Positions 1,720 through 5,684 of a DNA stretch of 49,753 nucleotides are shown here, one piece after another. Origin of the DNA: an uncultured Caryophanales bacterium (GTDB taxonomy: Bacteria > Bacillota_I > Bacilli_A > RF39 > UBA660); contig CAMKQS010000004.1 in NCBI GenBank assembly GCA_946414975.1, positions 1 through 49,753 on the forward strand, given 5' to 3'. The notes beneath the pieces are model-generated. The model had not been told where the DNA came from, did no database searches, and saw only the letters and a list, made by a program, of their open reading frames with translations. Made by a program: the position numbers and the translations under genes. Position 1 is the first letter of the stretch; every line of letters begins with the position of its first letter.

Positions 1720-3015
1720 TTATTTATTTATACAAAATACTGCATAAAGTGGCACTGATTTTATATTGTTTTCAAATCCAAAGTTTTTAGAAGATATTCT
1801 AATACTATAATTAGGACGATATTTCTTTATATACTCATTTAAACTTTTACTATTGGTTCTTCTACCACTTTTAACTTCTACTGGAATAATATCTCCATCT
1901 ATTTTTATTAAGAAATCTATTTCATATCTATCAAAATTATAATAATATAATTCTTTAGATTTAGGATATAACTCACAAGCTATATAATTTTCCGTAAGTA
2001 CTCCTTTAAACATTTCATTTTTATTTAAAAGTATTTCACTATAATCTAAATTAGATAGTGATCTAAGTAATCCAACATCACTTAAATATAATTTAAATTT
2101 ATCAGAATTGACAAATGCCTTTAATGGTGATTCATTTTTCTCTGTTAAATCACATTTTAATATCATATTACTAGCAAGTAACCAATCTAGACTGCTTTCA
2201 TATCTAACTTTTCTTGCATCTTTATCAACTATACTATATTTAAAAGTATTATTAACTCTTGCAAGTTCTTTAGGAATAGAGTTATATATTTGACTATTTT
2301 TGATTCCTTCACTATTTTCTGTATATTTATTCATATCTGCTAAATATGATGTAATTATTTGTTCTTGCAAAGTAAAATCAACATGCGATATATTACAATC
2401 ATTATCTATAAAATTATTTATCATAGCAGGCATTCCACCTAGTACTAAATATTTTTTATATAAATCTAATGCTTTTTCATGTATTGGATTCATTAGAGCT
2501 TCACTAGATTCATAATGAGTCTTTATTTCATTAATTAATTTATCTTCTTTCAAAGCCAATAAATATTCTTCAAAATCCATTGGATATAAATATTTAATTT
2601 TTACTTTACCAACTGGAAATGATGATTTAAATCTATTGATTTTAACTCCAAGTAATGAGCCAGCACAGACTATTTTATATGGTTTTTCACTTTCACAAAA
2701 ATATTTTAATGAAGTAATAGCTCTTTCACTTACTTGGATTTCATCAAGGAATAAAATTGTATCATCTGGATTAATAACTACATTTTTAATTATTTCTATT
2801 TTTTCTATTATTGTATTTGGATCAATAGTTTCTTCAAATACCTCAGCAATATTTTCTTCTTTATCTAAGTTGATATAAACATAATTATTAAAATTATCCT
2901 TACAAAACTCCTCTAAAATATAAGTTTTTCCTGTTTGTCTTGCACCAACTAACATAAGTGGCATCTTATAATCATTCTTCCACTTTTTTAATTCTTCTTC
3001 TATTTTTCTATACAT
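1720..3015 (-). CDS. AAA-family ATPase with DUF4143 C-terminal domain
   Basis: A 431-aa protein with Walker A GARQTGKT at residues 24-31 and Walker B ILFLDEIQ near residue 88. A C-terminal DUF4143 region contains EIDFLIKIDGDIIPVEVKSG, which has the D...ExK spacing of a PD-(D/E)xK nuclease-like fold. Such ATPases are widespread, mobile, and of uncertain role (toxin-like or DNA-linked functions have been suggested for relatives). The start is supported by GAGGTG 8 nt upstream. It is the first gene of the accessory cluster, and the upstream spacer carries two short palindromes that could be operators. It is followed on the same strand by the phosphoesterase gene with a 20-bp gap. Confidence 0.85.
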   Translation of the reverse strand: MYRKIEEELKKWKNDYKMPLMLVGARQTGKTYILEEFCKDNFNNYVYINLDKEENIAEVFEETIDPNTIIEKIEIIKNVVINPDDTILFLDEIQVSERAITSLKYFCESEKPYKIVCAGSLLGVKINRFKSSFPVGKVKIKYLYPMDFEEYLLALKEDKLINEIKTHYESSEALMNPIHEKALDLYKKYLVLGGMPAMINNFIDNDCNISHVDFTLQEQIITSYLADMNKYTENSEGIKNSQIYNSIPKELARVNNTFKYSIVDKDARKVRYESSLDWLLASNMILKCDLTEKNESPLKAFVNSDKFKLYLSDVGLLRSLSNLDYSEILLNKNEMFKGVLTENYIACELYPKSKELYYYNFDRYEIDFLIKIDGDIIPVEVKSGRRTNSKSLNEYIKKYRPNYSIRISSKNFGFENNIKSVPLYAVFCINK

Positions 3016-3041
3016 AGAAATTCACCTCTATATACATTTTA

Positions 3042-3098
3042 GCACTTTTCGTGCAAAAATACATATTTTTATTGATATTTTCGTACATTTTGTACGAA
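3042..3098 (-). promoter_or_regulatory. two short palindromes upstream of the AAA ATPase
   Basis: GCAC-TTTTC-GTGC lies at 3042-3054, and a perfect inverted repeat TTCGTACA-TTT-TGTACGAA at 3080-3098. Both sit between the IS3 fragment and the ATPase start at 3015. A weak -10-like TAAAAT lies just downstream of the first on the minus strand. A regulatory role is inference from position only. Confidence 0.4.
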
Positions 3099-3141
3099 TT
3101 TTACGTTTTTTTAAATAATTATTAAAAAAAAATCACTTTTT

Positions 3142-3886
3142 TGAACTAGTCAAGCAAAAGTAGACAGTTATAAAAAACACATTAAAACCCTGATTCAATT
3201 TTATATTGAATTGGGGTTTTATAGTTTAAAGCATATGAAGGTCTTTTATTATTATAATAATAAATATATTCTTCAATAAGTTTAGGAACATCTTTACAAT
3301 GTTTTAAATCAAAATCTATTATTAACTCTTCTTTAATCCAACCATTTAATGATTCATTTACTGGATTATCCGTTGGTGTTCCTGCTCGACTCATTGAACG
3401 AGATATGTTATAATCTTCTAGAAGCTTATTATAAGCTTTTGATGAATAAACTGAACCTTGATCTGTGTGAAGAATAATCAAATTGTCAGTTTGTTCTTTT
3501 TTTATACGTTCTAATACTTGTTTTAATCCATCATAATACGATTTAATGTCTCCTTTTCGAGATACTAAACCATATCCAATTATTTCTTTATTCCAAGCAT
3601 CAAAATACATTGTTAATTCATAATAAGTATTTTTAACCCAAAAAGAAGTCATATCAGATACTATCACTTCAAATGGTCTAGATAAGTATTTCCATCCATT
3701 CCAAATTAAATTATTAAATTTTTCATGTTCTTCATTTGGTTTCTTCCATTGATAATGTTTTCCTTTAGACCTTATTCCCTCATATTTACAACATAAATGA
3801 ACGTGATTATTTGACCATATTATTCCATACGGCAGACTATGTCCACAACCTAACTTGAACTTCGATTGAAGTTCTTTTATATAATA
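3142..3886 (-). mobile_element. IS3-type insertion sequence, 5'-truncated remnant
   Basis: The 3' end is intact: the terminal sequence TGAACTAGTC begins at 3142 and is followed by AAGTAGACAGTTAT, the style of IS3-family ends. Within the element a long imperfect inverted repeat (3184-3199 with 3205-3220) overlaps the last codons of the transposase and can act as a transcription stop. The 5' half is missing: no orfA, no left terminal repeat. Homology stops at about 3886, exactly where the terminator of the candidate RNA begins. Confidence 0.75.
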
Positions 3887-3895
3887 AAAAAGCAA
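3182..3895 (-). pseudogene. IS3-family transposase OrfB, N-terminally truncated
   Basis: The open frame encodes 237 residues with the complete catalytic core of an IS3-type DDE integrase: D81 (VSDMTSF), D145 (LHTDQGS) and E181 (VNESLNGW), with the D-35-E spacing of the family. The N-terminal part starts abruptly within what should be the HTH_21 region (SNNHVHLCCKYEGIRSKG); a complete OrfB is usually about 280-300 aa and is preceded by OrfA. The only possible start is a TTG inside the terminator stem of the adjacent RNA, so translation is doubtful. I read it as a dead remnant. Confidence 0.8.
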
Positions 3896-4070
3896 ACCTC
3901 CACTTGAAATAGTTTGCTAAAACAGTATAATAACTGTTACGTGCTCTTAGGCACAATCATAAATAAGCAGTCGAAGCTGCAATGTAGTCTATGCTACCAA
4001 TATCGGAACCTCGGGAATTAATCCTCTGTTCCAGTTTTAAATAAAAGGCATAACTACCAGGGAGGTTTGC
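3886..4070 (-). ncRNA. candidate novel structured small RNA (about 180 nt)
   Basis: Seen on the minus strand: a sigma-A-like promoter starts transcription at about 4070, exactly at the 5' strand of a perfect 10-bp helix (GCAAACCTCC, 4070-4061) whose partner GGAGGTTTGC (3901-3892) is followed directly by a T run at 3891-3886. Between them lie hairpins at 4032-4005 (GGAAC/GTTCC with an inner short stem), 3997-3984, 3980-3967, 3954-3941 and 3938-3921, and a terminator hairpin at 3918-3912/3897-3891. No ORF of any length explains the region. The closed-end architecture is typical of independent non-coding RNAs. I do not recognise the class. raiA-type RNA is a comparator by size only, and the branched fold argues against 6S RNA. 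It is flanked by IS remnants on both sides. Confidence 0.7.
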
Positions 4071-4071
4071 A

Positions 4072-5338
4072 ATGAATATAATACAAAAAAATGAAGAAAA
4101 AATCAATACTTTTTTAAAATTTTTAAAATTTTTTTATTTTAAATAATTCTATCAAAGAAAAGATTATTAAAGGTAAAAATCATAAGATTATTGAAGCTTT
4201 TTTATCTTATAATCCTGATTATTGTCCTTGCTGTGGTATTGTAAACGATTCTTCAAATGACATTATTAAATGGGGTTTTAGAAAAAATTGTAAAATTAAA
4301 ATCCCTAATATTTCTAACTGTCGTAGTTTACTTTTGCTTCATAAACAAAGATTTTATTGTAAACATTGTCATAATACTTTTTTAGCTGAGACAAACTTAG
4401 TTAATAAATATAAAAATATTTCTAATAATTCTGAATTACAAATAAGAGTAGAACTTACTAAAAAACAATCTGAAAAAGATATTGCTGATAGAGTTAATGT
4501 TTCTCCTTCTAAAATCAATAGGGTTTTAAATGATATATCATCTAAAACTCTATTAAGGCATCCCTTTTTACCTATTAATATGAATTGGGATGAATTCAAG
4601 TCCACTAACAATATGGCTTTTATGATTATGGATAATGATAATAAAACTATATTTGATATTAAACCTTCAAGAAAATCTATTGATTTAGAACATTATTTTA
4701 GAACATATCAAAAAAGAGATAGAGATAAAGTTAAACTTATTTCAATGGACTTTTATTCAGGATACATTCATTTAGCTAAAAAACTATTTAAAAATGCACA
4801 TATTGTTATTGATCGATATCATATTGTTACTCAAGTTTATAATGCTTTAAACATTACTAGAGTTAAATTATGTTATAAATCTAATCCTTATTATAATAAA
4901 CTCAAACATTATTAGAAATTATTTTTAAAAAACAAAAATGACTTATCTGAAAAAAAGTACTATTCTAAATACTTTAAAAAAGAAATATCACAAAAAGAAA
5001 TTGTCACATTTTTAATTAATACTAACCAAGACTTTAAAAAAACTTATGAATGTTATCAGGGAATAATTAATTCTATTAATGATAAAGATTTTACTAAATT
5101 TAAAAACATTATTTATAATCAAGATAAATATCTTCCAGATAAAATGAAAAAAGCCTTAAAACTTTTTAGAGATAATATCAAATATATTGAAAATTCATTT
5201 AGATACGATATTAATAACGGAGTTATCGAAGGTACTAACAATTTAATTAAATCATTAAAGAGAATTGCTTTTGGCTATAAAAAACATTCTCATTATATTA
5301 ATAGAATTTTCTTAATTAAAGGATTAATAAAAGGATGA
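4072..5338 (+). pseudogene. ISL3-family transposase with frameshift and nonsense codon
   Basis: Three in-order pieces of one ISL3 transposase. A possible start at 4072 opens a frame that runs into a stop within the A/T runs near 4120-4146; homology then continues in the next frame with an N-terminal zinc finger (CPCC and CKHC), an HTH (SEKDIADRVNVSPSKINRV) and catalytic D residues in MDFYSGY and VIDRYHIV. At 4913-4915 an in-frame TAG interrupts KLKHY-stop-KLFLK, where relatives have Trp (TGG to TAG is one change). The same frame resumes to 5338 with the final acidic motif IEGTNNLIKSLKR. The gene cannot make an intact transposase. It is head-on to the neighbouring chromosomal genes, which fits a foreign insert. 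Confidence 0.85.
4078..4106 (-). promoter_or_regulatory. promoter of the candidate small RNA
   Basis: On the minus strand, -35 TTGATT (4106-4101), a 17-bp spacer, and -10 TATTAT (4083-4078). Start is predicted at 4070 or 4071, the first base of the closing helix. The exact coincidence of start site and helix supports the strand choice. The promoter overlaps the 5' end of the decayed ISL3 transposase, which is read in the opposite direction. Confidence 0.65.
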
Positions 5339-5684
5339 TTTTCATCACCCTCTATACTCAATTCATTATATCAAATTATTGTTTACCAACACTATTTGAC
5401 ATAGAACCTTTTTTAATGTCATTATTCTTCTTTTATAGCACTGCTCAACACAATTTTTTTATTTTCCCCTATAATGACATTACACTTTCATTATAACAAC
5501 AATACCAATATTAGCAATATTTTGAGAAAAATTTATTATTTTTTTCTCTTTTTTTGTGTAAAAAAATGTAAATTCATACATTTATCTTTTATATAGTTAA
5601 AACAATAAAATTAAATTATAATATATCATCAAACATCTGTTGGTAATATTTTAAAAAAATAGGAATTTATTTATAATTCCTATT
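5339..5684. other. 346-bp spacer: ISL3 right end plus AT-rich DNA with an inverted repeat
   Basis: No gene is visible. It contains the ISL3 right end (to 5408), an 11-bp inverted repeat AATGTCATTAT (5415-5425) / ATAATGACATT (5471-5481) separated by 45 bp, very AT-rich sequence, and the terminator of the transporter gene at its right edge. Confidence 0.6.
5653..5683 (-). terminator. Rho-independent terminator after the AbgT-type transporter
   Basis: On the minus strand, a 9-bp stem ATAGGAATT / AATTCCTAT (5683-5675 and 5667-5659) with a 7-nt loop, followed by a run of seven T. It begins just after the TAG stop at 5685. Confidence 0.85.

Follow-up and report, generated by a model that had tools for sequence, protein, structure and literature searches.

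A structured segment between two insertion-sequence remnants

The 49,753-nt stretch analysed here, referred to throughout as the window, is contig CAMKQS010000004.1 of an uncultured Caryophanales bacterium (assembly GCA_946414975.1), and near its left end two insertion sequence (IS) remnants flank a structured segment at 3886-4106. The first is an IS3-family orfB remnant on the minus strand (3182..3829) that lacks its 5' part and retains an rve integrase core (Pfam rve, E 2.5e-12, with rve_3 and rve_2, on 3185-3829). The second is an ISL3-family transposase remnant on the plus strand (4130..5408) with Pfam DDE_Tnp_ISL3 on both of its pieces, a missing N-terminus, a stop codon at 4913-4915 and a right-end repeat at about 5386-5408; its start and right end were set by eye against seven ISL3 relatives (L001-L007). 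A sequence-only reading of this DNA had proposed that the segment between them encodes a stand-alone small RNA. We consider it somewhat better than an even chance that the segment is instead, together with a left end (LE) at 3830..3854, the 5' leader of a truncated mobile element of a widespread but, it seems, undescribed family, whose protein is the transposase and whose leader is a guard against read-through.

The 10-bp helix said to close the segment is present: the 5' arm of this helix, P1 (GCAAACCTCC, 3892..3901), pairs with a 3' arm, GGAGGTTTGC (4061..4070), and a T run on the minus strand (3886-3891) lies directly beyond it as a possible terminator of a minus-strand RNA. Within P1, folds of the plus strand contain an inner closing helix, P2 (3910-3914 with 4052-4056, plus 3916-3917 with 4048-4049), and five hairpins, H1 (3921..3938), H2 (3941..3954), H3 (3967..3980), H4 (3984..3997) and H5 (4005..4032), in keeping with the several hairpins described before. 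The folds surpassed all 200 shuffles on either strand (z -5.90 for 226 nt of the plus strand, z -4.36 for 241 nt of the minus strand); because the folded stretches differ, the two values do not constitute a test of strand. Also inside P1, on the plus strand, is a putative promoter, TTGAAA-16-TATAAT (3904..3931, 11 of 12 matches), whose -10 box is contained in the H1 loop, TATAATAA. The 3' arm of P1 contains, by sequence, fold and pairing computation, a Shine-Dalgarno (SD) sequence just ahead of an ATG at 4072, where an open reading frame (ORF) begins (MNII..., plus strand) of which about 12 codons remain (4072..4106). The earlier statement that the segment holds no ORF stood in the main for frames of at least 40 aa; the exceptions are 10 nt shared with the IS3 frame 3182-3895 and a 49-aa minus-strand frame (3957-4106) that shows no sign of being a gene.

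The segment is a real, conserved and structured feature that no Rfam family matched. At the gathering threshold the sole match in the whole window was the small bacterial signal recognition particle RNA (RF00169, 33078-33163, minus strand, 55.8 bits), a search of 3700-4300 at E<=10 returned four matches (E 6.4-9.7) that all fell far under the family thresholds, and seven related loci at E<=1 returned none.

Relatives, ends and insertion sites of the element

A DNA search of 241 genomes from the order of one Bacilli metagenome-assembled genome gave matches at E<=0.01 in 28 genomes. We accept 16 of these as genuine (best E <=2e-5) and put the other 12 down to short matches by chance. Several genomes carry at least two copies, and many copies lie at contig ends, as repeats do; seven contigs end inside the leader (L035, L036 and L038-L041 on one side, L034 on the other). 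When the loci from the 16 genomes were compared in a common orientation, most showed the leader behind a left end, (C)GGCAGAC-NNN-GTCCGCAACCTAAC, and outer flanks that differ from locus to locus. The leader precedes one gene, which encodes 511 aa in the intact copy L047; its ORF is open over its length in several further copies and broken or cut off in the remainder (L037 is degenerate and L030 has ATA for ATG). The ORF is followed by a GGGGTAAGGGG stretch and then by the right end, AACTTG...AATAGCATA. Of the copies that keep both ends, five are 1799-1872 bp long, for an element of about 1.85 kb. A phylum-wide sample gave a match in one of 392 genomes, namely the query's own, and phages and plasmids yielded no DNA homologues that count, the 15 phage records returned having an E of about 8.

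The window matches the L047 element over 3830-3856 and 3886-4106. Since the match stops at 4106 and ISL3 sequence begins at about 4130, what survives of the element is the left end, the leader and about 12 codons, with the ISL3 remnant in the place of the element's remainder. With its gene gone, the segment is a fossil leader, and truncation of the copy gives it a stand-alone look; in other loci it forms the 5' leader of the gene for the ~511-aa protein, within a third mobile element. Nor did the flanking remnants carry it, which had been put forward as one possibility: similarity to the left end starts at 3830, directly beside the IS3 orfB remnant, and in the seven ISL3 relatives (67-73% aa identity) the 330 nt ahead of the transposase gene (230 nt in L005) are, by eye, of different sequence. 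We rejected on the same ground the candidate that the SD and ATG ahead of ISL3 make the segment a leader of the ISL3 transposase. The genomes of these relatives gave 18 short matches to the segment (best E 0.0079), which we take for chance; the four inspected have that look.

Twenty-six distinct left flanks match the LE pattern, 25 from relatives and one from the window, with degenerate ends such as that of L037 left out. All 26 end in CATA and 22 carry the exact sequence ATTATANCATA, which read outwards is TATGNTATAAT, an extended -10 box; in the window this target (3819..3829) has degenerated to ATTATTCCATA. In 17 of 25 left flanks, the strand of the -10 box carries, 29-143 nt further downstream, the start of an ORF with an SD ahead of it. 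Random positions (880) have such a start in 16.0% of cases if read in that orientation and in 3.6% if read in the opposite one, and right flanks in two of nine. LE, which in the window reads C-GGCAGAC-TAT-GTCCAC-AACCTAAC on the plus strand, places TTGCGG 18 nt upstream of the target TATAAT (counted by eye). The element lands repeatedly upstream of host -10 boxes, and may keep the neighbouring gene expressed.

Insertion occurred without target duplication at all three empty sites that we compared, after CATA in Bacilli and at CTA/G in beta-proteobacteria (the slash marks the cut). Empty site L103 (genome G001) reads straight across the L046 junction with AATTATATCATAGAAAAGG, and L107 reads across the L047 junction with a 2-nt gap directly behind CATA. 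The beta-proteobacterial copies L083, L100 and L101, close relatives of each other, have the ends CTA/ACGAGGC...GGAATCTA/G, the exact cut within the shared letters being inferred; the ORF MDILDSLRQAPSAELYRLYL, which the element splits between codons 4 and 5 in L100, is uninterrupted on a C. zhejiangensis plasmid, whose site reads CTGG, not CTAG. The hosts of the empty sites are other species (75-84% identity by search listings), so that the site is compared, not the donor event. A search for an empty site of L101 found none. Beside the L047 insertion lies a short repeat with dozens of copies in genome G171, where 33 further places match part of the L047 left flank (query about 52-128; 79-87% alike).

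The ends also bear on a quite unlikely alternative, that the fold acts as single-stranded DNA and forms, with the LE hairpin, a structured end recognised by a nickase, as do the subterminal hairpins of IS200/IS605 and the origin hairpins of Rep_trans plasmids. LE is a subterminal hairpin with a 3-nt loop, found in Bacilli and beta-proteobacterial copies, and by eye a similar hairpin lies upstream of Rhodococcus genes; insertion without duplication would also fit, as would L052, an internally deleted copy of 615 bp (about 1026-1640) that keeps both ends, the complete leader and part of the ORF. Against this, the fold is weaker as DNA (z -3.16, with one of 200 shuffles as good), a matching structure was not identified at the right end, and the presence of the SD within P1 would be a coincidence. 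L052 may be a non-autonomous derivative. Across the 26 sites the LE loop (TAT, GTT, TAC, TTT, TTC, TGT, GCT, GAT) varies more than the surrounding letters.

The predicted protein and its possible enzyme class

The ~511-aa protein belongs to a large family (7706 of 7999 scored candidates in one search) and, apart from weak matches to winged-helix domains, falls into no Pfam or NCBIfam family. According to two AlphaFold models it may combine a TBP-like fold with a winged helix, as in Rep_trans-type initiators, and the invariant residues are, in order, D19, E246 and D250, Y323-x-K325 and R330-x-E332, with QxE rather than RxD as motif I; this order of D, E, Y and E would correspond to that of Rep_trans-type initiators, in which the catalytic Tyr lies in YxK and the three acidic residues in motifs N', I and IV (RxE). 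Histidine is absent from the invariant and nearly invariant columns. In PMC13107129 and PMC5714925, Rep_trans (PF02486) and Rep-Arvir (DUF7845) proteins are described as having a TBP-like fold and the order D - acidic - YxK - RxE, with a winged helix also in Rep-Arvir. The predicted fold and the motif order would be shared with these rolling-circle initiators, whereas our protein has no significant sequence match to them, and its gene sits in an insertion element of ~1.85 kb, where theirs are found in plasmids, phages or integrative and conjugative elements. Two of the proteins gave no match to PF02486 at E<=1, the family was absent from the 25 listed of the 33 families matched by 90 proteins at E<=0.1, and an hhalign comparison to one Rep_trans protein returned a probability of 0.3. 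Neither a Y1 transposase family (two proteins, and the same 25 listed families) nor an IS110-type domain (domain searches, including those 25) was found. Against a viral structure library four matches reached E<=0.001, but none had more than a low TM-score; a TBP of a large virus was among the matches listed. Searching the sequences of solved structures produced nothing for one protein and weak matches, ferritins first, for the alignment; PADLOC matches were likewise weak and mostly to the winged helix. In viral contigs the protein alone found no relatives, and its alignment found two partial ones (L096, L097), which were left out of the further comparisons.

We infer that the protein is probably the element's transposase, a predicted TBP-fold nickase with a single tyrosine and a fold-level relative of Rep_trans initiators. 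It would cut next to CATA and move the element as IS200/IS605 or IS91 do. With IS200/IS605 (HUH Y1), the element shares insertion 3' of a short fixed sequence, the lack of target duplication, a subterminal hairpin and, as proposed here, a single catalytic tyrosine; it differs in a protein predicted to combine a TBP-like fold and a winged helix rather than HUH, in its long structured leader, and in a Bacilli target that is an extended -10 box. The lack of target duplication, the proposed relation to replication initiators and the asymmetric ends recall IS91/ISCR and Helitrons (HUH Y2), in contrast to which it has one conserved YxK motif, another predicted fold and a length of about 1.8 kb. The transposases described from bacteria so far group into a handful of enzyme classes, namely DDE, DEDD and HUH enzymes and the tyrosine and serine recombinases. 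If our assignment is true, this numerous TBP-fold, Rep_trans-like family would add a class and link TBP-fold replication initiators to transposition. Searches of open-licence PMC papers yielded no description of such an element; the novelty would be that of the element family, and depends on the inferred enzyme class.

We regard it as very unlikely that the leader RNA works in trans with the protein, as a guide or scaffold comparable to the IS110 bridge RNA. Like that RNA and the IS1111 seekRNA, it is a noncoding, structured IS end, here a conserved multi-hairpin RNA beside a putative nuclease gene in a mobile element, and the H1 loop UAUAAU could pair with the target ATTATA. That loop is, however, accounted for by the element's own -10 box, the beta-proteobacterial target is CTA/G yet no CUAG leader loop was found by eye, the protein is a different one with no IS110-type domain found, and guide pairing, judged by eye, gained no support in the beta-proteobacterial copies. 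Equally doubtful to us is a scheme in which the protein represents a TBP-fold (Rep_trans-like) tyrosine nickase class, the conserved left-end RNA binds it and helps it find -10 boxes, and the element enters between the host -35 and -10, supplying a new -35 (TTGCGG, with an 18-nt spacer).

Conservation of the leader and its proposed control

Twelve distinct leaders were aligned (A2), and a covariance model, R1, was built from them. In A2, 97.8% of 500 cells are paired and seven of 43 pairs have changed on both sides, compared with a mean of 1.9 in shuffles (0 of 500 as high) and 0-2 in slid structures; these are the compensating changes that the sequence-only reading had named as support. The measure 'further pair types' was not above shuffles (490 of 500 as high). 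Three of the pairs changed on both sides lie in H3, which in the window is unlike the other leaders at two pairs with pairing kept; H2 shows a compensatory C-G to A-T change (6 CG, 5 AU, 1 unpaired), the outer stem of H5, whose inner stem is less regular, has one compensatory change, and H4 does not vary. P2 is invariant in all 12 leaders and therefore offers no covariation evidence, and P1 is nearly invariant. Beyond A2, P1 is formed by other pairing sequences, ATCAAAACC/GGTTTTGAT in L060, ACAAAACACA/TGTGTTTTGT in L064, L066, L067 and L070, and others again in L083 and in L101 (TGGCTCCGGTCG/CGACCGGAGCCA), and the H1 stem has other letters in the L060 and L064 types that still pair. Searched against 143 kb, R1 matched the second-group leaders of the L064 type (L064, L066, L067, L070; E 4e-6 to 6e-5) and no leader in L060 or any of eight GC-rich loci, so the case for RNA homology across phyla comes down to the place of P1 before the ATG. 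P1 has that place in five of the eight (L080, with a weak SD, L083, L100, L101 and L102) and is absent there in L081 and L099; the comparison for L082 used a wrong start.

Averaged over 14 leaders, the probability that the SD is unpaired is 0.09 with the 5' arm of P1 and 0.56 if the transcript starts behind TATAAT; in L060 the exposure changes in the opposite direction. When the upstream part of the window's leader was shuffled, the value was 0.48 (sd 0.18, 50 shuffles). The plus-strand promoter or an equivalent lies between the P1 arms in 12 of 13 leaders, window included, and both of its hexamers are invariant across A2. We propose that the leader may serve as a read-through guard for the element's gene: RNA entering from outside would carry both P1 arms and hide the SD, and RNA from the element's own promoter would begin inside P1, lack the 5' arm and be translatable, so that the segment probably keeps the gene quiet. 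The control principle proposed is of a known kind, IS10 and IS50 having read-through guards with the same layout. As in IS10/IS50 and IS200, the SD would be hidden in outside transcripts and an antisense RNA may exist; in contrast to them, P1 spans a multi-hairpin region of ~160 nt and encloses the element's own promoter. As a new structured RNA, the leader is directly testable with reporters.

The earlier proposal rested in part on a minus-strand promoter, TTGATT-17-TATTAT (4078..4106), which loses its defining weight against the background: 3000-5500 holds 23 promoter-like sites, versus 21.9 in shuffles, and the plus-strand promoter is the better match. Because the minus-strand site recurs in 10 of 13 leaders, window counted, an independent minus-strand transcript may exist. 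We think it rather unlikely that the transposase mRNA is repressed by an antisense RNA of ~185 nt running from opposite the ORF start to beyond P1, in the manner of IS10 RNA-OUT, IS200 art200 and the pT181 countertranscripts. The motif, TTGATT-17-TAT[TA]AT, keeps its place even in leaders of proteins only 50% identical, its predicted start is the first base of P1, and by eye a T run, or in L064, L066, L067 and L070 a separate hairpin and T run, follows P1. Moreover, the P1 5' arm and most of H1 lie outside an mRNA from the element's own promoter, so that their conservation needs another carrier, and C.A mismatches in P1, H1 and H2 of L085 would be G.U pairs on the minus strand. Weighing against such an RNA, besides the background frequency, are the overlap of its promoter with codons for a conserved peptide, the absence of that promoter in L026, L031 and L091, the failure to see by eye either promoter or T run in the GC-rich relatives, and the SD within P1, which would be coincidental. 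Counting wobble-pair cells by strand gave 6 versus 5.

Immediately ahead of the ISL3 transposase start, and covering its start codon, L001-L007 carry inverted repeats (about 2870-2940 in L001). By eye, the sequence of the arms changes from copy to copy without loss of pairing, as in GACATGTAATC/GATTACATGTC and GTACATAG/CTATGTAC; this looks like a similar guard in an ISL3 family. The ISL3 protein found no relatives in viral contigs. Adjoining the IS cluster, a 431-aa ORF on the minus strand (1720-3015) encodes, by eye, an ATPase with a P-loop (GARQTGKT).
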